A stretch of DNA of 23,078 bases, from IMG/VR virus record IMGVR_UViG_3300010885_051616, positions 1 through 23,078 of that record. The stretch is one strand, 5' to 3'. Below the pieces are notes generated by a model. The model had not been told where the DNA came from, did not search any database, and saw only the letters and a list, made by a program, of their open reading frames with translations. A program made the translations under genes and the position numbers. Numbering within the stretch: the stretch's first letter is position 1; the number at the start of each line of letters is the position of its first letter. This document shows positions 3,514 to 23,078 of the stretch, in pieces. The stretch is from a virus.

Positions 3514-4921
3514 AAAGAATTACACCAAGACTGAAGTTCTTGATGCAGGTAAAGTTGGAATAGAATTCGAATTCTACAGCTCAATGGATGTTATTAAAAC
3601 AGCCAGAGAAATGGGAAGATTCATCAAGAAACGAATTGTGGTTCCCATGAACGTTTCTTCGTTTGGTGAAGCTCGCCCTTTGTACCATTCGCCGGTTACA
3701 CCTTCATCAAGTATCTTCAAGCTTGAACCTGATTATTCAGGGGGTAAGAAGATGTGTGAATTAGTTACAGGACCGATGCCTTATCCTGAAGCTAGGAACA
3801 TAATCATAAAAGTGTTTGAATGGATTAGCAGTAACGGTTTCACAACTGAACGCTGCTCAATACATTTAAACATATCTATTGATGGTGTTAAGCTTCCTAC
3901 AAGATATACTGTTCAAAATCTTAATATGCTAAAATTTATTCTTAGCTTTGATGAAAACATGATTTATCGCGCATATCCTGATAGAAAGGATAGCGTATAT
4001 GCTCGTAGTATAAAGGAAATCTATCCTAATGATATTTTCTTTTATAGTGATAACACACCTGTAATTTCTTCTAACAATTTCTCGCTACCCGATGAAAAGT
4101 ATTTCGGAGTAAATTTTTTAAAGAGAGAAAAAGGTTATCTTGAGTATCGTTATTGCGGCGGTAAAGATTATGAAAAGAAATCTAAGAAAATTCTTGACAT
4201 ATTAGAGTATTGTATTTTGCATCTGCATGATACACTTAACTTTACTGATTATACACCAGAAGAAGTAAAATACTTCAAGGATTTGTATAAAAAACAAGCT
4301 GCCTTAGCAAAACCGTTTATTCGTGTAGAATCATTTAAGAAAGCATTTCCAAAATTGGAAGTGGCTATTGATTTAAATGCTGATGAATCTGTTATTCAAA
4401 CTTATTGGAATAACATTCGTGAGAAACTGTTTAATCTTATCGTTCGTGGTGGTTTACGTGAAGGGAAATTTAATTACGATTCGGACTTATCAAAATATCA
4501 ACTTCTTGGTGCAAAAATTAGAAATTGCAAAATTAGTGATATAGAATTTGTATCTTGTGACATTGAGGGTGTAATTTCACATTCAGCATTTTACAAATGC
4601 AAAGTTAGAAATTCTCGAATAACTGACTCTACTGCACCTATTGATAACCAATTCATCTTTTGTAAAATTGGTGAAGTTCCTTTACACGCATCTAACTATT
4701 GTGAAGATTGCTTTATTGAGAACAAGAAACAAATCATTAACTGTGAAGTTAAAGGTGGTGTAATTCGTAATGGTGAAATTGGTAAATTAGCTAACATATC
4801 TAAAGAAACTGCCATCGTTGAACAAATCGAACCAGCTGAATCTCCTGGTGCTTATAAAGATGAAAAGCAAGAGAAGGAAAATGTAGAGAAGGCAAAAGAT
4901 GCCAAGAAAAAAGACCAATAA
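3503..4921 (+). CDS. Predicted amidoligase (carboxylate-amine ligase fold) with pentapeptide/beta-helix-like C-terminal half
   Basis: I chose the ATG at 3503; a TTG at 3491 would add four residues but overlaps the S1 gene more. The protein has 472 residues. The N-terminal half shows the amidoligase signature: GIEFEF (19-24), a following acidic strand ending ELVTGP (E86), CSIHLNIS (H121) and YLEYRY (E214, R216). These fit the Glu-x-Glu, Glu, His and Arg motifs of the ATP-dependent amidoligase_2-type family, which joins amines to carboxylates of peptides or small molecules. Residues about 332-430 look like a right-handed beta-helix with short repeats (GAKIRNCKISDIEFVSC), and the last 25 are charged Lys/Glu. 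The substrate is unknown; a virion protein, peptidoglycan peptide or other cell peptide is possible. Confidence 0.72.
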   Translation: MNIKKNYTKTEVLDAGKVGIEFEFYSSMDVIKTAREMGRFIKKRIVVPMNVSSFGEARPLYHSPVTPSSSIFKLEPDYSGGKKMCELVTGPMPYPEARNIIIKVFEWISSNGFTTERCSIHLNISIDGVKLPTRYTVQNLNMLKFILSFDENMIYRAYPDRKDSVYARSIKEIYPNDIFFYSDNTPVISSNNFSLPDEKYFGVNFLKREKGYLEYRYCGGKDYEKKSKKILDILEYCILHLHDTLNFTDYTPEEVKYFKDLYKKQAALAKPFIRVESFKKAFPKLEVAIDLNADESVIQTYWNNIREKLFNLIVRGGLREGKFNYDSDLSKYQLLGAKIRNCKISDIEFVSCDIEGVISHSAFYKCKVRNSRITDSTAPIDNQFIFCKIGEVPLHASNYCEDCFIENKKQIINCEVKGGVIRNGEIGKLANISKETAIVEQIEPAESPGAYKDEKQEKENVEKAKDAKKKDQ

Positions 4922-11000: not shown

Positions 11001-13792
11001 TACCACAAGTAAGTTTTTCATACATCACACGTTATAGTGATTGTAGAGATACGTGGGAAGAGTTTGGAATACCACCGCCACAACAATTACCTACTACGGT
11101 ATCATTGAATGGTGGAAATTCTGCAGCACCTCCTTTACCGGTTAATGATTCATTATTAAACGATACACCCGTTTCATGGGATGAAATATTTAGTAGATGG
11201 GTTAATCCTATTTACGTAAACACTACATGGGATGAATCTGTGGTAAGATGGAACTCATTAGAGACGAGTGAAATTGATAATCTTAATGATTATAATTTTC
11301 CGCCATGTACAGATTTTCAGATTGAAAGAATCTCAGCGTATGATTTAAAAGAAGGTGCGATTCGTTCTTTTAATATGTCTACAAATTCTTTTATAGTCGA
11401 GAATCAAATCGTGAGACCGGAATTAATTGCAGGTGATAGAATTTACCTAAGACGAGATTTGAATATTTTTGAATACCAAGTTTCATCAGCTGACTATTCT
11501 GTGCCTGCACAAACTGAAATAACAGTAACTACTTCATTACCTAATGGCTTAAACACTAGCTGGGATGTATTACGTGAAGTTGAAGGTATCATTGAAATCT
11601 ATGGTAATGCTATTTATGATGCAGTCAATAATCTCGAAGGGTTTAAGATTGGAAATTGGGTAAAAATTACAGGTGCTGATGATATACCAAAAGTTCCTAG
11701 AATCCCAGTATTAAGTGTTACCGATAATCCATTACCAGGTTTACATCAAGTTTTAAACTTCCCAGCACCATATGCTACTGATGTAAGGTTTACAGAAGTT
11801 AATGAAATTGGTCAATTATACAGACTGCGTGATTACCATGTGTCAAACGGAAACTTGAATTGGAATCCCGCGATAATGAGTTCTATATGGAATTTAAGAC
11901 CCGTGCTTGAAGGTCCATATCCAGGAAATCCTTCTGACTATATCGGAAAACTTTACATTAACAAAACACCAACTGCATTACCTGCACTGATAACATCAGC
12001 GGATCCTATTAATGAGATTCGTCCAGGATTTACAATCATAACTGTTTTTGTAGAAGATTCATTTGGTAATATTGTATATGAACAGCGTTTAAGAACTATT
12101 CATATTTATGAAAACTTCAGTACGTCAGGTCCGACATGGAATATTTGGCAAGAGCCCGGATCTTGTATTGTAGAAATTGATGTTGAAGCAATTGACCGCG
12201 GAAGATTGAGTGAATTTAATGCAATTGCATCTACAGCAGGTTACACAACTTGGTGTGAATATGAATATGCCGTTTTCCCAACACGAGTAAATAATGCTTA
12301 TCCAACTGCTGGCCCTGCTATAAGTTTAGAAATGAACTTTAATACACACCCAGCAGCCGCATCTTTTGATTCTACATCATTTCCACCAACACCATTACAA
12401 ATATCTGAAAATGCTATATGGTTTTATGATCATGGTATTGTTTCAGGAGACTTTGCGCTGGAAATCATCAATACAGGTATTTCATCAGTAACAGGTAATA
12501 CACTTGTCACTGTTAATGATACTGATTATGAATTGGGCAGATCGGCGGGATCATTTGTAGCATGTTCACGAGACTTTGACGAAGATTATGCTGAACAACG
12601 ATTAGGTACATTAATCCTACGTTGGGAAAACACAAATGAAAATAGATGGTCACAATACTGTTCTCAAACATGGGATACGTTAAGTTATCACGAAAGCATT
12701 TACTGCGGATGGATTCTTGATACAGTTGCGCCAAATGGAAGAATTCAGTATAACGATGAACCAATATTTGAGTTTCAGACAATTACTGGATCTCTTTCAA
12801 TTCCATATACATGGAGATTTGCTTATGAAGAACTTATCACAACTGATAATAGCGGAATGGTTAGATTCTATTATAAGTTTGATCCTGCATACACAAAACG
12901 CGTAAATAGTACACAAGTATTAGGTGATACATTCATAATCGTTGATGACATAGCCGGGGTAACCGTAGGCGATACTATGATTGGGTTAGGTATTCCTTAT
13001 AACTCACAAGTTAATGCGATTACGATTGTACCTGGTGGTTTTCAATTAGATCTTGTACAAGAAGACGGAATCACGCCTTCTGCAATTACTGAAACATTAA
13101 CACAAAGAATAGAATTAATTTTAGGATCTGCGTTAACACAAAGAATCTTATCAACGGCAAAAAGTCCAGGTGCGGATTCTTTAGGATTCCTAAACGGAAC
13201 CAACGGGGTATTTTTCTATGATAGTTTAGATCTTGGTCAAGTAACTATTTGTCATACATTCCCTCTTGGAAATATGGGTTCATGGTTAACTGATGCATTA
13301 GTAGGCGGAAATCAAGGGGGGCGTGATAGATTAATTTTACGATATCCTAACCTACAAACATATTTTTATGAAGGGCAAAATCCTTCTGGTGAAGCTGGTT
13401 GGTATCCATCAGCAAACTTGAATTTCAATTATGATTCTACGGATAATCGTTGGCAATCATTCAGACTCCCATATGAAAGAAGTATCTGCGGAAGTTGGTC
13501 ATATGAAGAAACTAAAATAGGTTATAATGAAGTTAGAATACCAACAGGATCATCGGTCTTGTTAGTTCCTGATAACTGTAAGATATCTGGTAAAACGGGA
13601 TTCCGTTGGAGAATTAGTGAACAATTAACTGAGGAAGATTATCTTAATCTTGCTGAAACTGTTGATGGAGAAATCATGTGGACTTTTTCGCATCCCGGAA
13701 AATACAATGTTGAACTATCAGTTATTGATACAAACGGAAACGTAGGTACCAAAGAAAAGAAACAATTCATAACCGTTTACGATGAGGAATAA
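8012..13792 (+). CDS. Giant baseplate/tail structural protein in the gp7/gpI position
   Basis: This 1926-residue protein follows gp25 and gp6, the W-J-I order of P2 and gp25-gp6-gp7 of T4. Residues about 315-480 look like a tail-protein-I/wedge core ([20 protein letters not shown], then [20 protein letters not shown]). Residues about 600-910 hold at least four short GY-x-x-x-P segments ([19 protein letters not shown] is clearest). An Ig-like strand pair with a Gly-Lys-Tyr turn lies at about 960-985, and a PKD/Ig-like end at about 1885-1926 ([20 protein letters not shown]). Trp-Asp motifs (TWDD, TWEE, SWDE, TWDE, SWDV) recur from about 816 to 1830. T4 gp7 is 1032 residues, so this one is nearly twice as long, with decoration domains likely inserted. 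The stop overlaps the next start by 11 nt. gp7/gpI homology is inferred from order and the core. Confidence 0.68.
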
Positions 13793-16700
13793 GACAAATA
13801 ATATAGAAACTCGTGATAAGATATCAAAACTTTTACAAAGATTTGACGGCATAGAAAATAATAACCCGCCGACAAATGCTATTGATGGTAAAAAGTCTGG
13901 TATCATATACACAAGTGATTGGATAGACAAAAATAGTTATCCTGATGCTACGAATCCTTTAGATAATCGTTATGAAGAGAGCATTGTTGATCTTGATAAG
14001 TTGGTTCGCAAAGGTGAATGGGTATATGAAATTGATTTAGTTTTTAGAGATCCTGTTCCACCAGATTACGGTTTTAGCATTATAAATACCAATGACTTTT
14101 TTACAATTAAAAAAGTTGCTAAACGAGAGGAGATATGTTTTGATTACTCTACAAGTTATCAGATATGTGCCAAGGATTATGATGCATGGATACAGTTTCC
14201 ACCCATAATGGGAGATTCGCATTTCACTGTTGGAAGTACTGACCCGCTTTTCTTTAGTAATGCTATTGGTTGGGAATTGGATAGAGATTTGCAAAAGGCG
14301 ATTTCAGCACTCTGTTGTGCACACAGAGCTAAACATTTCTACATAAGTACTGTTACTGGTCCAACCGGTCCTGATGGTTTTGGTATGTATTATTGGGATG
14401 TTACCATCGTTGATGAAAACAATAATATCGTTACATATTGTAGAAAAGAATCGAGAGAGGAGCACTGGGATTTTTGTATTGGTGATAATTTTGACTTATT
14501 AATCTACATAGAACAATATCCTGAATTTACACCCCAGCCTGGAGATGTTATTAATTCATTTACATCAGATTGTGAAATACCTGTAGGTACATGGCATATT
14601 GAAAGTGTTACGCCATCGATTGATAATGTGTATTGGTTAGTTACAATTGTTAATGAAGTTGGGCTAAGACCTTATTGGCAAGATTATTGTAGAGGCAATG
14701 TATGTTTCCTGTCTATCTCGGCTAAGCCAAATTACAATAACGATGTTCGCGGTTACATTAAATATATTGAAGAGATTGTAGCAAGTTGTACTAATCCGCT
14801 GACGTATGTATTTGATAATTTTGTATTCTCTGGTGACTATGAGGAGGATCGACAAAATTTTACGGATATGATGACCGAAGGTATACTTTTACCAAGTGGA
14901 TCATATTGCTGTCCTGATTGCGAACCTTACTTTTTAGGTACACCGGAAGCATTTGCGGTTTTTGCCGATAAAGTTAATGACAGCGGGTTGTATCCAATTT
15001 TCACTGAACCGTGTTGTTTAGACAACAAAATGTTACTTCCTCCGTTTGAAAAATTAGAAAAGTACATAAAAGAAAATTTTATCAATCCGCCAGCTTGTTG
15101 TCCTGACACAGATTTTATTCAATGCGCCGATGCAATACTTGATGCAGTTGACCAAAACCGTTTTCAAACTTACACTGCGTTGTTATCTATGGGAATCGTT
15201 GAATATTCAACGATTGGCGGGAACACATCTCTATGCATACTAAATACGTTTCTTGCATTGATACCTGAAGAGCTTAGAACAGATTGGTTTGTAGACATTA
15301 TGAATCAAGGTATTGTTATTTACTGTGATGAAACAGGTATTCATATTTCCAATATTGAAGGGTTTAATCCAGTTCCAGTTGAAGGATTCGTATCAAGGTG
15401 GGCAACAACAAATGAAGGTGATTCGGGAAATAATCAAATAATATTACCGCTAACACCAAGTGGAACATATAATTTTGTTGTAAATTGGGGGGACGGAAAC
15501 TTTGATACTATCACAGCTTGGAATCAGGCCGAAACTACGCACACATATTCAAATCCTGGTGAGTACACGGTTACGATAACAGGAACAATTAATGGCTGGA
15601 GTTTCAGCCTGATTGGAGATTACAATAAATTATTAAACATTACTCAATGGGGAAGTTTACAATTAGGAAATGACGGAGGATATTTTGCTGGATGCGCTAA
15701 CTTAGATTTGTCGGGTGTAATCGATGTTCTGAACTTGACAGGAACAAACAACTTAAATGGAATGTTTAATAACTGCAGTTCATTAACAACAATAGGTGGT
15801 GTAAATTTATGGGACACATCAGGTGTTAATGATATGAGTTTTATGTTTTGCAATGCTCAAAATTTTAATCAGGATATAGGTGCATGGAATACTAGTAATG
15901 TTCAAACTATGAATCAAATGTTTTTGGGCGCATACATATTTAATAACGGCGGGTCCACTACAATTAATAATTGGAATACTGGTTCTGTCCAGGACATGGG
16001 TAATATGTTTTATGATGCAAATGTATTTAACCAACCTATAGGAAGTTGGAATACCGGAGCTGTTCAGAACATGTCTGCTATGTTTCAAAATGCAACTGCG
16101 TTTAACCAACCTATAGGAAGTTGGAATACTGGAGCTGTAACTAATATGTCTAATATGTTTGCAGGAGCATCTGCATTTAACCAACCTATAGGAAGTTGGA
16201 ATACCGGAGTTGTAACTGAAATGTCTGCTATGTTTGGAGGAGCATCTGCGTTTAACCAACCTATAGGAAGTTGGAATACCGGTGCAGTAACTGATATGTC
16301 TGCTATGTTTGGAGGAGCATCTGCGTTTAACCAACCTATAGGAAGTTGGAATACCGGTGCAGTAACTCAAATGAGTTCTATGTTTATTAATGCATCTGCA
16401 TTTAATCAAAGCATCAGTACTTGGAATACCGGCGCAGTAACTACTATGTCTAATATGTTTTATAACGCAACAGTATTTAACAATGGAGGGTCTAACACAA
16501 TTAACAGTTGGAATACCGGCGCAGTAACTACTATGTCTAATATGTTTCGCGCATCATCTTTTAATCAACCTATAGGAAGTTGGAATACTGGAGCTGTCCA
16601 GAACATGTCTGGTATGTTTGCAGGAGCATCTACTTTTAACCAACCTATAGGAAGTTGGAATACATCTAGTGTTCAGAACATGAATTCTATGTTTTATGCA

Positions 16701-17207
16701 GCATCTGCGTTTAATCAAAACATAGGAAGTTGGGTTACTTCAAGTGTTCAGAGCATGAATTCTATGTTTTCAGCAGCATCTGTGTTCAATCAAAACATTG
16801 GAAGTTGGAATACCGGAGCTGTAACTAACATGTCATATATGTTTTATAACGCAACAGTATTTAACAATGGAGGGTCTAACACAATTAACAGTTGGAATAC
16901 TGGCGCAGTAACTACTATGTCATATATGTTTCATAATGCATATGGTTTCCAACAAGACATCAGCAATTGGAACATATCCAACGTGAGCAATTTTACAAAC
17001 TTTATGCATGACAAATCAAGTGCAAACTATCCTACTGCGTATCTTGATGCAATTTTTAATACATGGGCAACATTAACATTACAACCTGGTGTTAATATTG
17101 ACTTTGGAACTATTAATGCTACTTTTGCTGGTGGTTTTGTACTCGGCTGGAGCATTCTAACTACTCCGCCAAAATCCTGGACAATAACATTTGGTGGTTT
17201 CATTTAA
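13782..17207 (+). CDS. Receptor-binding-type adhesin with Cys-rich domain, PKD-like domain and BspA-like (DUF285) repeats
   Basis: This 1141-residue protein starts at an ATG inside the end of the giant gene. The N-terminal part (1-330) is unrecognised and probably attaches to the baseplate. Residues about 333-525 are Cys-rich (CCPDC, CCLDN, ACCPD) and paralogous to the whole next protein. Residues about 540-610 are PKD-like ([10 protein letters not shown], then [16 protein letters not shown]). From about 620 to 1075 come DUF285/BspA-type repeats of 25 residues ([20 protein letters not shown]). A 65-residue beta-rich tail ends the protein. PKD plus DUF285 is typical of Bacteroidota surface adhesins, so the tip was probably acquired from a host-like source. 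A role in host binding is inferred. Confidence 0.75.
15864..17020 (+). repeat. Array of about 15 in-frame 75-bp DUF285 repeats
   Basis: Units start with Phe-Asn/Gln at 15864, 15939, 16026, 16101, 16176, 16251, 16326, 16401, 16476, 16560 and onward. Most are exactly 75 bp, and three variants carry an FNNGGS insertion. 16221-16292 matches 16296-16367 exactly over 72 bases (tandem shift 75). 16453-16516 matches 16837-16900 exactly over 64 bases, extended to 85 bases with one mismatch (shift 384, in frame). The near-identity at DNA level implies recent duplication or gene conversion. Confidence 0.9.
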
Positions 17208-19127: not shown

Positions 19128-19895
19128 ATGGCAAATAGAAAAACAAAAAGAATCTCTGATGAAGAATTTGAAGCAACGTTTCCTGCTAATTATACTCCAC
19201 CAAACAATTCAAGATTTAGTATTGAAAAGCTAAATATTGATTTTAAGTTCAAGAACGCAAACCAAAAGAAATTTGTTCATTTAATTATTGACAATAAAAT
19301 AACCGTAACAGCAGGTCCAGCAGGTACGGGTAAAACATATCTTGCGTGTGCTCAAGCTCTTAAGTTATTAAAGTCAGATCCACGTTTTAGAAGAATTATA
19401 CTTGTCAAAAGTGTAACTGTTCTTGAAGGTGAAGAAGTGGGATTCCTAAAGGGTGACATCAAAGAAAAAATGTTTCCCTATACAATTTCATTCTTAGATA
19501 ACTTTCATAAACTTGTTGGTGAAGGCATTACGCAAATAATGATGGACCAAGGACTAATCCAAGTTTTACCACTTGCATATATTCGCGGGCGATCTATTGA
19601 TAATGCAATCATTATTGTGGACGAGGCGCAAAATATCACCCAGAAAAATATGAGAAGTACCATGACTCGTATTGGAACTGATACCAAGATGATTATTACA
19701 GGTGATACCAAACAGGTAGATATGAAGAATCCTAAACTATCGTCACTGGATCTTGTTGTGAAACTATTTCAAGACAAACCTGATATTGGTACTATGATTT
19801 TTGATCGCGCTGATATTGTACGTGATCCTATTGTAATGGTAATTGAAGAAACTTTTGATGAGTGGGAAGAAAAGAATCCACCAACTAAAGGATAA
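19128..19895 (+). CDS. PhoH-like P-loop ATPase
   Basis: This 255-residue protein has a Walker A GPAGTGKT (63-70), a Walker B with IIIVDEAQN (DEAQ at 165-168), and the PhoH signatures VKSVTVLEGEEVGFLKGD and IITGDTKQVD. PhoH-like ATPases have been linked to RNA handling and are common phage auxiliary genes; their reaction is still poorly known. The first 40 residues are variable and include a short Lys/Arg-rich stretch. The ATG follows a 15-nt A-rich leader (AAAAAATATAAAGCTT). Its end overlaps the minus-strand SET gene's end by 11 nt, a tail-to-tail arrangement. Often written phoH, but I leave the symbol empty because phage copies are divergent. Confidence 0.88.
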   Translation: MANRKTKRISDEEFEATFPANYTPPNNSRFSIEKLNIDFKFKNANQKKFVHLIIDNKITVTAGPAGTGKTYLACAQALKLLKSDPRFRRIILVKSVTVLEGEEVGFLKGDIKEKMFPYTISFLDNFHKLVGEGITQIMMDQGLIQVLPLAYIRGRSIDNAIIIVDEAQNITQKNMRSTMTRIGTDTKMIITGDTKQVDMKNPKLSSLDLVVKLFQDKPDIGTMIFDRADIVRDPIVMVIEETFDEWEEKNPPTKG

Positions 19896-20331
19896 CCTTA
19901 TCCACATACCATTTACTGTCAAACCAAGTCGCGCCGTAAGATACTGTTAGTTCTTCATCGGCCTTAATTGGTTTGACAGTAACTATACCTACACATCCCG
20001 TTTCCGTTAGTTTGATAAATTCACAATTAGGAGTGTCAGAATGATTATACATACTAACGTTTCCCAATGGAATGCATACCTGGTCAGCAGACCAACCAAT
20101 AACATATTGGTCAATTACTAAACTTTTAGGATGAATACCCGTTTCCATACTCGTTTTTAGAGAATGGTGGTAAATTCCTGTTGGAAAGATAACAGCCTTC
20201 GCTATTTCTATACACATGAAATCTGGGATATCCTCCGATGTAAAAACTCCAAGTGAACCTACAAGAGAATCCCTAATAGATAAACATTCTAAAGATTGAG
20301 GATAGCTATTTATTTCGATTGTTCGGCGCAT
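19885..20331 (-). CDS. SET-domain protein (putative lysine methyltransferase)
   Basis: I chose the ATG at 20331, which overlaps the upstream gene by 22 nt; an ATG at 20379 would overlap by 70. The 148-residue protein is a compact SET domain: GVFTSEDIPD (28-37) near the N terminus, the hallmark NHSDTPNC (96-103), and the catalytic-side ELTVSYG (127-133). The NHSxxPNC and ELTxxYG pair binds S-adenosylmethionine and the lysine channel. No pre-SET or post-SET zinc is visible. SET domains usually methylate protein lysines; in phages they are rare and could modify host or phage proteins. It is the second gene of a short minus-strand pair and is convergent with the PhoH gene. Confidence 0.82.
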   Translation of the reverse strand: MRRTIEINSYPQSLECLSIRDSLVGSLGVFTSEDIPDFMCIEIAKAVIFPTGIYHHSLKTSMETGIHPKSLVIDQYVIGWSADQVCIPLGNVSMYNHSDTPNCEFIKLTETGCVGIVTVKPIKADEELTVSYGATWFDSKWYVDKVIL

Positions 20332-20591
20332 GATGTTGTAATCTCTACAGGAATCTCTGGTACAAGATCCGAAAACCATTTAGGAACTAATTGGCATGTT
20401 TTGCAGATTACAACACGAGCAGGAATGTTTTCAGTATTTCCTGTTGGGCTAAGAATTGAAGATAGTCGTTTAAACATTGTCACTTCTTCATACATCATAC
20501 CACCGCATTCGCACTTTACCCAAGGAGCATCAATTAGATCTCGTTGTAGTTTCAAATCATCAAATGATTTATTGTCTTTATTTATTTCCAT
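20310..20591 (-). CDS. Small zinc-ribbon-like protein
   Basis: This 93-residue protein is the first of the minus-strand pair. Four Cys form a ribbon-like set: C27-x-C29 (KCECGGMMYEE) and C63-x-x-C66 (VICKTCQLV), separated by a charged helix. This could bind one zinc ion. The last residues (TSCAEQSK) overlap the SET start. No further domain is seen. It may be a DNA/RNA-binding or protein-adaptor protein acting with the SET protein. Function unknown. Confidence 0.65.
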   Translation of the reverse strand: MEINKDNKSFDDLKLQRDLIDAPWVKCECGGMMYEEVTMFKRLSSILSPTGNTENIPARVVICKTCQLVPKWFSDLVPEIPVEITTSCAEQSK

Positions 20592-20808
20592 ATTATTAGT
20601 TTTAGTATATATTCTTAATTCTTTTTAAGAGGATAGAAGCTTAGTCCTACTTAGGTCTTAATGCTTTGTCTTACTTAAGTCTTATTCCTTGTTATAAGTC
20701 TCTATCTATACTACCCCCTTAACTTTAATTGATATTAATTTTATTCAGATTTAAAAAAGAGTTTTACAAAACCATTTAACTTGAGTGTATATAATAAATA
20801 AAGGAAAT
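20592..20808. promoter_or_regulatory. Divergent spacer between the minus-strand pair and the exonuclease locus
   Basis: This 217-nt gap is the only long non-coding stretch and separates divergently transcribed genes, so it should hold promoters both ways. Upstream of the minus gene (reading minus) lies an AT-rich TATATACTAAAACTAATAAT just before its ATG. Near the plus start there is TTGAGTGTATATAATAAATA, with TTG at 20781 and a TATAAT-like stretch at 20790-20795. Between lie the short direct repeats at 20644-20690. An A-rich AAGGAAAT precedes the ATG at 20809. No tRNA or gene was seen. Promoter positions are guesses. Confidence 0.5.
20644..20700. repeat. Short direct repeats with palindromic cores in the divergent spacer
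   Basis: Two adjacent units begin at 20644 (GTCCTACTTAGGTCTTA) and 20668 (GTCTTACTTAAGTCTTA) and differ at two of 17 positions; a partial third follows at 20691 (GTTATAAGTC). Spacing is 24 then 23 bases, about two helical turns. The second holds a perfect 8-base palindrome, ACTTAAGT (20673-20680). This looks like a cluster of protein-binding sites, such as operator copies or a replication/recombination site. Confidence 0.5.
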
Positions 20809-20907
20809 ATGTTCTCACAAGCCTACTTAAAGAAACTGTTGTTTTTCGATATAGAAACATTGATATATAAACTAAAATATCAATATCAAAAATGGAAGAG
20901 AACTTAA
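20809..20907 (+). pseudogene. Severed 5' end of the exonuclease gene (32-codon leftover ORF)
   Basis: The ATG at 20809 opens a 32-codon frame ending with TAA at 20905-20907. Its first 17 codons encode MFSQAYLKKLLFFDIET, against MFTHAYLKKLLFFDIET at the intact exonuclease start (21725). The two 51-base stretches match at 43 positions and six of the eight differences are silent. After the DIET motif the frame runs into unrelated sequence. Its last 16 bases overlap the homing endonuclease's ATG (20892). It is the old 5' end of the exonuclease gene, left behind when the endonuclease entered; it may still act as a short leader for coupled translation. Confidence 0.8.
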
Positions 20908-21719
20908 TAAAAGAAGTTTGTGCTTTAGAAACATGCGAAACCGTTTTTTATAATAAAAAAAATATAAAACACAAACAAAAATATTGCTCACACAAGTGTT
21001 CTATAAAAGCTAGGACAGGTAACTTGGAATACAATAAAAAATTAAAAGAACTGCATAACAGAAAAGAAACAAAAGAAAAACATTCTAAAGCCTTTAAGAA
21101 AAGGTGGGAAGATAAAGAATCGAGAAGTACATTGCTAAATAGCACATGGAATGATTCCACTTATAGAAATAACAAAATATGTTCATTAAAGAAAACCTGG
21201 AGTGATCCTTTATTTAAGAAAAAGATATCAGATATACATAAAGAATATATGTCAACTGATGAATATAAACAAAAAAGTAGTATCTTACAAAAAGAAATAC
21301 AAAATAGACCGGATGTTAAAGCAAAAAAATCTGCAACCATGACAGAAAAATGGAATGACACATCATATGCTGAAAAGACAATTAGCAGAGGGTATGCTTA
21401 TAAAAATTTTACATTACCTTCTGGAAAAATAGCAAAACTGCAAGGATACGAACCGTGGGTATTAATGGATCTTTTAAATATATATGAAGAATCGGACATA
21501 GTAATTGGTGTTAAAAATATACATGAATATATTGGTCATATTACTTATACTTTTGAAAATAAAGTTTCTCGTTACTTCCCAGATTTTTACATTATAAGTG
21601 AACATTTAATAATAGAAGTAAAAAGTCATTGGACTTATGAAAAACATTTAAACAGAAACTTAGAAAAACAAAAAGCATGCTTAGCCAAAGGAATAAATTT
21701 TAAATTCATCATAAAATAA
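20892..21719 (+). CDS. Homing endonuclease, zinc-finger + helical repeat + PD-(D/E)XK nuclease
   Basis: This 275-residue protein has an N-terminal zinc finger (C10, C15, C32, C36). From about 64 to 165 come six repeats of about 17 residues with a W-x-D core (KRWEDKESR, STWNDSTYR, KTWSDPLFK, EKWNDTSYA are clearest), resembling NUMOD-type DNA-binding helices. The C-terminal nuclease (175-275) has GYEPW (185-189), YFPDFYI (D231) and IIEVKSHW (E242, K244), the PD-(D/E)XK catalytic set. This combination is typical of free-standing phage homing endonucleases. The sequence is richer in A and Lys codons than its neighbours, a sign of transfer. It sits between two copies of the exonuclease's 5' end. 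Nuclease type is well supported; the target site is unknown. Confidence 0.85.
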   Translation: MEENLIKEVCALETCETVFYNKKNIKHKQKYCSHKCSIKARTGNLEYNKKLKELHNRKETKEKHSKAFKKRWEDKESRSTLLNSTWNDSTYRNNKICSLKKTWSDPLFKKKISDIHKEYMSTDEYKQKSSILQKEIQNRPDVKAKKSATMTEKWNDTSYAEKTISRGYAYKNFTLPSGKIAKLQGYEPWVLMDLLNIYEESDIVIGVKNIHEYIGHITYTFENKVSRYFPDFYIISEHLIIEVKSHWTYEKHLNRNLEKQKACLAKGINFKFIIK

Positions 21720-21724
21720 CACAT

Positions 21725-22438
21725 ATGTTTACACACGCCTACTTAAAAAAATTACTGTTTTTTGATATAGAAACAATCGGTAAGTACAAAGATTACAGTT
21801 CATTTAAACAATCGGATCCCGAAGGTGCAAACATCTGGGAAAAGAAAATGACTCGTATTAATTACGAAAAGTATAATGATCATTCTGAAGCATATGCAAA
21901 ACAAGTTTCACTTTTTCCAGAGTTTGGACAAATTGCTTGTTTATCTTACGGTATTTGGAAAGACGGCGATATGCAAATATCTACTATTCGTAATGAAGGT
22001 GATGAAAAAGAAATGATGAAAAAGATCGCAACTCTTTTTTACAAATCCGCAAGCAATAATATGATACCTATTGGCTGGAATATTAAAAACTTTGATGTTC
22101 CTTGGGTAGTTCGTAAATGCTTAATCCACGGTATACAAGTTCCAACAGTATTAAGTACATATGAAAAGAAACCTTGGGAAGTAAGTGTTGTTGATCTTAA
22201 AGATATTTGGAAATCAAACAGCAGTCTTGATGTTACATTTGAAGATGCTGCATACTCGATGGGTATTCCTACTCCAAAGGATGATATTGATGGAAGTCAA
22301 GTTCATTCAACTTATTGGAATGAGGAACTTGACAGAATCGTTACATACTGTGAAAAAGATGTAAAGACAATGATTCTTATGGGAGAGAAACTTTATAAAA
22401 TTTATAGTCCAGAAACACTAATAGGAAAACTCGTATAA
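21725..22438 (+). CDS. PolB-type 3'-5' exonuclease (DnaQ-like/RNase H fold)
   Basis: This 237-residue protein has the DEDDy exonuclease motifs: Exo I in LLFFDIETIG (D14, E16), Exo II in IGWNIKNFD (117-124), and Exo III TYCEKDV (Y208, D212). The layout matches the predicted PolB-related exonuclease family (DNA_pol_B_exo2-like), with no polymerase domain. It would remove 3' nucleotides for proofreading, repair or DNA degradation. It starts five bases after the endonuclease stop; that ATG lies in a rebuilt 5' end, the original copy being at 20809. It is followed after two bases by the glycosylase gene, so both may serve DNA repair. Confidence 0.87.
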   Translation: MFTHAYLKKLLFFDIETIGKYKDYSSFKQSDPEGANIWEKKMTRINYEKYNDHSEAYAKQVSLFPEFGQIACLSYGIWKDGDMQISTIRNEGDEKEMMKKIATLFYKSASNNMIPIGWNIKNFDVPWVVRKCLIHGIQVPTVLSTYEKKPWEVSVVDLKDIWKSNSSLDVTFEDAAYSMGIPTPKDDIDGSQVHSTYWNEELDRIVTYCEKDVKTMILMGEKLYKIYSPETLIGKLV

Positions 22439-22440
22439 AT

Positions 22441-23078
22441 ATGCCTGAATTAGCAGAAGTAAAAATAACATCTGAGTTTATTACAAAATATGCTCACGGA
22501 AGAAAGTTTATTAGAATTGAAAAATCACCGGAATCAAAAGTAAAAACTTACTTAAGCACGTGGGATGAAGCAGCGTTTACTGTTAAAGCAAAATCACGCG
22601 GCAAGGAAATCTTAATTGAATGCGAAAAGATTGGCGGAGACATTAATGGTTCAGCAACTAAAACAATGTTAGTAACATTGGGTATGAGTGGAACATGGGT
22701 TTATTTATCTGACGATATAACCGAAGGCAGAGACCAATATTTAAAACATATGCATTTGCGGTTTATTACTGATGACGGCGGGATATTAGGAATGATAGAT
22801 GTTCGTAGATTCGCTAAATGGAAATGGGTAAAAACTTGGAGCAGTAATCGTGGACCATGCCCACTTACTGAATACGAAAAATTTAGTTTAAACTTGACAG
22901 ATACACTGAATAAAAATAGAGCAAAGAAAATTGTCAATCGAGATAAACATTCTGACTTATGTGAAGTACTAATGGACCAAACCGTCTTTAATGGCGTTGG
23001 CAACTATCTTAGAGCGGAAATTCTATACCGTGCTGATATTAATCCTTTTCAAAAGTTTTATGAGACTACTCATGAAGA
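22441..23078 (+). CDS. Fpg/Nei-family DNA glycosylase (3' end outside window)
   Basis: This frame stays open to the window end (212 residues visible). MPELAEV carries the N-terminal P2/E3 catalytic pair after Met removal. SRGKEILIE (K55) is the beta-hairpin lysine, LGMSG (80-84) and VRRFAKW (121-127) match the conserved core, and FNGVGNYLRAEIL (183-195) is the helix-two-turn-helix. The C-terminal zinc or zincless finger is beyond the window, so Fpg and Nei cannot be told apart. These enzymes excise oxidised bases and cut the strand. The start follows the exonuclease stop by two bases. Confidence 0.88.
   Translation, partial: MPELAEVKITSEFITKYAHGRKFIRIEKSPESKVKTYLSTWDEAAFTVKAKSRGKEILIECEKIGGDINGSATKTMLVTLGMSGTWVYLSDDITEGRDQYLKHMHLRFITDDGGILGMIDVRRFAKWKWVKTWSSNRGPCPLTEYEKFSLNLTDTLNKNRAKKIVNRDKHSDLCEVLMDQTVFNGVGNYLRAEILYRADINPFQKFYETTHE

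Follow-up and report, generated by a model that had tools for sequence, protein, structure and literature searches.

The window, 23,078 nucleotides long, represents part of a tailed-phage genome from a metagenome, T4-like in appearance judging by its genes (a Phage_base_V baseplate protein, PhoH and others). Within it, codons 1-17 of a gene for a DEDD-type exonuclease are present two times, flanking an open reading frame (ORF) for a DUF7487 nuclease. The features of the locus are listed below.

20780..20808 (+), putative native leader of the exonuclease gene, with a TGTATATAA promoter-like motif and an AAGGA ribosome-binding-like sequence
20809..20859 (+), left copy of codons 1-17, read as the native start and truncated after DIET (repeat and ORF comparison)
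20809..20907 (+), short 32-aa ORF, the apparent remnant of the truncated start (ORF list and translation)
20860..20891 (+), junction with an AT-rich 8-bp hairpin and a ATATATAA promoter-like motif, directly before the nuclease start
20892..21719 (+), DUF7487 (PF24308) nuclease (Pfam profile, PHROG match and conserved motif)
21725..21775 (+), right copy, the putative replacement for codons 1-17 (repeat comparison)
21725..22438 (+), intact DEDD-type 3'-5' exonuclease, PF10108 / PF13482 (D14, E16, D124 and D212 conserved)

A nuclease gene between two exonuclease starts

The two starts form a direct repeat (20807-20859 and 21723-21775; 53 nt, 85% identity, spacing 916 bp), in agreement with a first-pass annotation of this DNA, which had described the first 17 exonuclease codons on both sides of an endonuclease, 916 bases apart. 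Their translated match (19 aa, E = 1.8e-7) lies in the top 0.1% when set against left and right flank pairs drawn from different loci, and a chance origin of the repeat is ruled out on these two measures. Both copies open with ATG and encode M-F-x-x-AYLKKLLFFDIET, and they part ways directly after the DIET codons, where that annotation had also placed the junction; the longest exact stretch common to both in the repeat alignment is 12 nt. Past the repeat, the left frame runs through 15 unrelated codons to a stop about 15 nt inside the nuclease ORF, giving the translation MFSQAYLKKLLFFDIET, then LIYKLKYQYQKWKRT and the stop. From this overlap of stop and start, the left ORF and the nuclease may be translationally coupled. 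The right copy begins 5 bp past the nuclease ORF and opens an intact exonuclease of 237 aa (N-terminus MFTHAYLKKLLFFDIETIGKYKDY...), in which D14 and E16 of DIET, as well as the motif residues D124 and D212, are shared with its relatives. The ORFs (20809-20907 versus 21725-22438) confirm the original description of a truncated left and an intact right copy. The insert between the copies is essentially a single ORF, the nuclease accounting for 828 of 916 bp. Rfam, Pfam and NCBIfam show no self-splicing RNA or protein around the nuclease: no intron match was obtained from Rfam for the insert, and no intein families appear in the Pfam or NCBIfam results for the window.

The nuclease ORF (275 aa) belongs to Pfam family DUF7487 (E = 4.8e-23; score 82.7 bits, Pfam cut-off 27) and also matches PHROG 15137, annotated 'endonuclease'. 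It comprises a Cys-rich N-terminus, a predicted helical middle and a C-terminal PD-(D/E)XK-like domain (PDFYI ... IIEVKS), whose residues D231, E242 and K244 are invariant across 17 aligned homologues. A structure model built from the homologue alignment was confident only over the C-terminal third (residues 171-275), and the top Foldseek matches were mostly PD-(D/E)XK nucleases, including Vsr and RecE, none of which passed an E value of 0.001. Single-sequence searches with the nucleases of the window and of two further loci discussed below (L094 and L124) returned nothing, or just those loci again. Family membership and gene context make its assignment as a putative homing nuclease well supported.

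Uninterrupted relatives and the origin of the two copies

Among the 64 viral contigs that encode the exonuclease, 17 do so with at least 54% identity. The first-pass annotation had proposed looking for relatives without the endonuclease, and these are plentiful: all 17 closer relatives have one start, uninterrupted through the DIET codons. Such sporadic presence, with empty sites in relatives, is as for a homing endonuclease. Neither a near-identical phage carrying the empty site nor a donor was found. In many of these 17, the leader contains a TATATAA-like motif some 20-25 bp ahead of the ATG. Such a motif (TGTATATAATAAATAAAGGAAATATG) also precedes the left copy, in a leader whose spacing and motif are like those upstream of the uninterrupted gene in, for example, L005, L010 and L011; the right copy lacks it. 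The left copy is therefore best read as the start that the gene had from the outset, still in place, and the right copy as its replacement. Since the left copy appears to hold both the native start and the native leader, these data and the uninterrupted relatives support the earlier proposal that the element broke the gene there and restored it downstream. The same proposal had called the insertion point a typical conserved target, for which support is moderate: the junction region does exceed the average conservation of the gene (rank 55 of 688 windows), although it is not the most conserved part.

In a relative phage, a DUF7487 nuclease gene (L012:4700-5578, minus strand) lies directly 3' of an uninterrupted exonuclease gene (match ends at 4690) in convergent orientation, and L036 and L143 carry one at the same place. 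Related nucleases thus appear to visit one neighbourhood at two sites.

Over the 17 codons (51 bases), 8 base differences separate the copies (3, 0 and 5 at codon positions 1, 2 and 3), which amounts to five silent and two replacement codon changes and agrees with the mostly silent differences first noted. In a neutral simulation 5.6 replacements were expected against the 2 observed (P = 0.0038), a comparison whose power is limited by its 17 codons. The copies share 43 of 51 bases with each other, and either shares at most 39 of 51 with the 12 relatives compared. Because the copies match each other better than they match any of these relatives, the putative donor would have been close. The proposed comparison of both 51-base copies with relatives was thus made, but for each of these relatives left and right lie at about the same distance, so the foreign copy is not assignable in that way; that it is the right one is our inference from the layout. 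Both copies were probably working gene starts in related phages before they were joined, since a truncated copy that drifts would rarely diverge with such a silent bias, and most of the divergence would then have accumulated while both starts worked. Codon-by-codon recoding against re-cutting is compatible with these data too and would give the same pattern as a related-phage donor.

The gene start might instead have been tandem-duplicated within the phage, with the nuclease landing between the copies later. That the copies are mutually closer than either is to any relative compared would suit this course of events, but a useless left copy should gain replacements, whereas the changes in the window and in L094 and L124 are mostly silent or silent-biased. 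Moreover, none of the 17 closer relatives has a duplicated start without the nuclease, and related nucleases show this layout again in other genes. An earlier tandem duplication is accordingly unlikely, and the silent-biased divergence favours a related-phage donor over a decaying local duplication, as had been suggested.

The signals around the left ORF also bear on its present role. The junction hairpin is weak (z = -2.3), and ATATATAA, a late-type promoter-like motif at 20863-20870, occurs as three exact copies in the window, each shortly upstream of an ORF start, a number at chance level. Several T4 homing genes have hairpins of this kind (PMC3014915). These signals, the retained promoter and ribosome-binding-like site, and the stop that overlaps the nuclease start would fit a retained leader peptide of 32 codons that controls or couples translation of the nuclease and the exonuclease, the constraint on it being regulatory. 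This account does not explain why the sequence is that of an exonuclease start, and as a full explanation we consider it quite improbable; the left ORF could be a remnant first and serve translational coupling second, both being compatible.

Duplicated gene ends at other nuclease loci

Relatives of the nuclease were gathered from viral contigs and phage records, and the flanks of 146 non-redundant loci were tested for duplications. A gene end is duplicated around the nuclease at four further loci, so that the strict layout is rare: three are 5' cases (one strong, one moderate and one tentative), and one is a 3' case linked to an intron.

The strong case, found in two contigs (L094/L128), involves DNA polymerase 43B (the C-terminal half), with the nuclease antisense. 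The repeat spans 39 codons, from the ATG to VKI, and ends just before the FINSCYG motif. The upstream, broken copy adjoins gp45, which is the site of the single 43B start in L183 and L184, and the copies are silent-biased (P = 0.0002). The 238-kb contig of L128 also encodes the window-type exonuclease, uninterrupted (L038). In the moderate case, a gp47-like metallophosphoesterase gene in contigs of two different samples (L124/L131), the left copy MAKRIWMVSDSHL is broken and the right copy MQSKDTKRIWLLSDTHLGC intact, relatives reading ...KRIWLISDTHLGVRSNS. These copies are likewise silent-biased (P = 0.0002); their pair score (p = 0.0027 against cross-locus pairs) fails correction for 146 tests if gene context is left aside. 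The nuclease start codon at this locus lies within a strong hairpin (z = -5.5). The tentative case is a glycosyltransferase (PF13528; L309), in which 16 codons up to TGNGHIT are repeated (p = 0.015) and the left copy has an apparent 1-nt deletion. The break points fall at catalytic motifs: at DIET, between SDTHL and G, and between VKI and FINSCYG. The 3'-end version (L127:1770-3355) has the last 40 codons of the gp23 major capsid gene (PF07068) on both sides of an insert composed of a group I intron (RF00028; E = 1.2e-10, just below the Rfam gathering score) and the nuclease; between the copies, 19 codons have changed silently and 3 with a replacement. Among the top flank matches inspected for 262 control ORFs there were N-terminal tag families, noncoding promoter-like repeats and tRNA-like sequences, and no broken gene starts.

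These loci also bear on two further explanations of the window. Since it comes from one metagenomic contig and no near-identical record turned up, an assembly artefact could have fused strains with and without the nuclease; however, a longest exact match of 12 nt is short for an assembler to join, and the gp47 arrangement is present in contigs from two samples and that of pol 43B in two contigs, which makes an artefact very improbable. Least credible of all is that the left reading frame is restored by removal of the insert as a group I intron, an intein or a bypass element: although L127 holds a group I intron with a related nuclease, the window insert has no intron match and is mostly nuclease ORF, and the gene is already restored by the right copy.

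Several other high-scoring flank matches proved not to have this layout. Those at L024, L152 and L164 are N-terminal tags resembling capsid-targeting sequences, and L089 looks alike; the unrelated neighbour genes at these four loci have common short tags (MKYIKEYEEY, NEKFKEESDPIKDMGIG, YSDFINE), which may serve large phages as capsid-targeting signals. The matches at L162 (a control ORF) and L178 come from repeats that resemble promoters or terminators, that at L214 from a broken tandem nuclease, and L126 has no matching gene start. At L106 and L111, related nucleases lie between what seem to be the parts of a split gene, with intein-like segments (TLQDEFGKEF.., YKVLTPSGFQDFAGV), an arrangement resembling fractured genes with split inteins; L111 has an apparent second intein-like segment upstream.

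A candidate mechanism and its known counterparts

Homing genes within coding sequence are usually assumed to depend on an intron or intein, or on a split that the gene tolerates. On the anatomy of the locus, the empty sites, the native left copy, the silent-biased divergence and the reappearance of the layout in one or more other phage genes, we consider it likely that the window holds a free-standing homing-endonuclease element that carries a replacement for the piece of the host gene broken by its nuclease. We infer cleavage, its site, homing or mobility, the identity of the donor and the order of events as follows. The DUF7487 nuclease would cut the uninterrupted exonuclease gene around codons 17-18, near the catalytic motif. 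A related phage genome with the nuclease and an exonuclease start would serve as the repair template, both being copied in, with the gene body providing homology on the right side of the repair. The donor's first codons would join the rest of the gene in frame, giving a complete hybrid exonuclease 5 bp downstream of the nuclease, and the recipient's own start would be left where it was, reduced to a remnant of 17 codons that still follows the native promoter. The nuclease would retain or gain the ATATATAA motif and the hairpin. Because the replacement start is in frame, the exonuclease gene would survive without an intron or intein.

The closest likeness is to the mORF elements of fungal mitochondria, described for atp6, atp9, cox2 and nad3 in Allomyces, Glomus, Rhizopus and Mortierella (PMC3630166). 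There, an endonuclease ORF arrives together with a foreign 3' end, the resulting hybrid gene is expressed, and the gene's own end, which differs from the new one mostly at silent positions, is displaced. An endonuclease with a replacement gene terminus, a hybrid gene, a displaced native terminus and largely silent changes are common to both, and the window has the full order of displaced native end, nuclease, replacement end and intact gene, the right copy being putatively foreign. However, mORFs affect the 3' end in mitochondria and encode LAGLIDADG or GIY-YIG enzymes, whereas the window element lies at a 5' end in a tailed phage and encodes a PD-(D/E)XK-like DUF7487 protein; it would thus work like an mORF in mirror image, yet is not classed as one.

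T4 has 12 free-standing homing genes, of GIY-YIG or HNH type and intergenic; split genes are described for mobE, mobA and seg43, and with mobE and mobA in the coding region the gene stays split (PMC2988022). The window element resembles the free-standing Seg and Mob genes of that review in being an intron-less nuclease gene of a T4-like phage beside a DNA-metabolism gene, but its exonuclease is restored by the duplicated start, unlike the mobE and mobA hosts. The text of the T4 review contains no word beginning 'duplicat', and a survey of phage nuclease genes mentions duplications in other senses only (PMC10448857). No phage or 5'-end case of a carried gene end was found in the papers searched, which included few subscription titles, and we claim no priority.

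A conserved phage gene whose parts lie on either side of a nuclease, as also seems to be so at L106 and L111, recalls the fractured phage genes that Dassa et al. reportedly described in 2009, in which split inteins accompany homing endonucleases and splicing rejoins the halves. Fractured genes need splicing, whereas in the window one gene end is just present twice and the gene can do without splicing. Synthetic rescue homing drives cut a gene and carry a recoded working end. The window element, for which cutting and a recoded end would be alike, may be their natural counterpart, although the drives are engineered and the likeness is an analogy only.

If correctly read, the window element represents a further route of entry into coding sequence, carrying along the broken piece, and predicts a searchable signature in phages of mosaic gene starts and short displaced starts beside nuclease genes. 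The similar layouts in a few other phage genes suggest that this may be a recurring way to invade coding sequence while the host gene survives. More tentatively, and a little short of an even chance in our estimation, DUF7487 could include phage homing elements that hit catalytic-motif codons near gene starts and bring a recoded replacement 5' end; such natural cut-and-rescue elements would invade essential coding sequence without intron or intein, leaving chimeric gene starts.

The large phage contigs G040, G048 and G049 (L162-L175, L179, L180) contain 9 to 16 DUF7487 matches each, an unusual density for a single nuclease family. Elsewhere in the window, a 1141-aa protein in the structural gene region (13782-17207) contains DUF285 (BspA-like) units in repeated form (E = 1.4e-173); this family takes its name from Mycoplasma proteins. 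A SET-domain protein (19885-20379, minus strand; PF00856, E = 1.6e-13) adjoins PhoH, and a MutM/Fpg-like DNA glycosylase (22441-23078; PF01149, PF06831) begins 2 bp past the exonuclease stop and runs off the contig.
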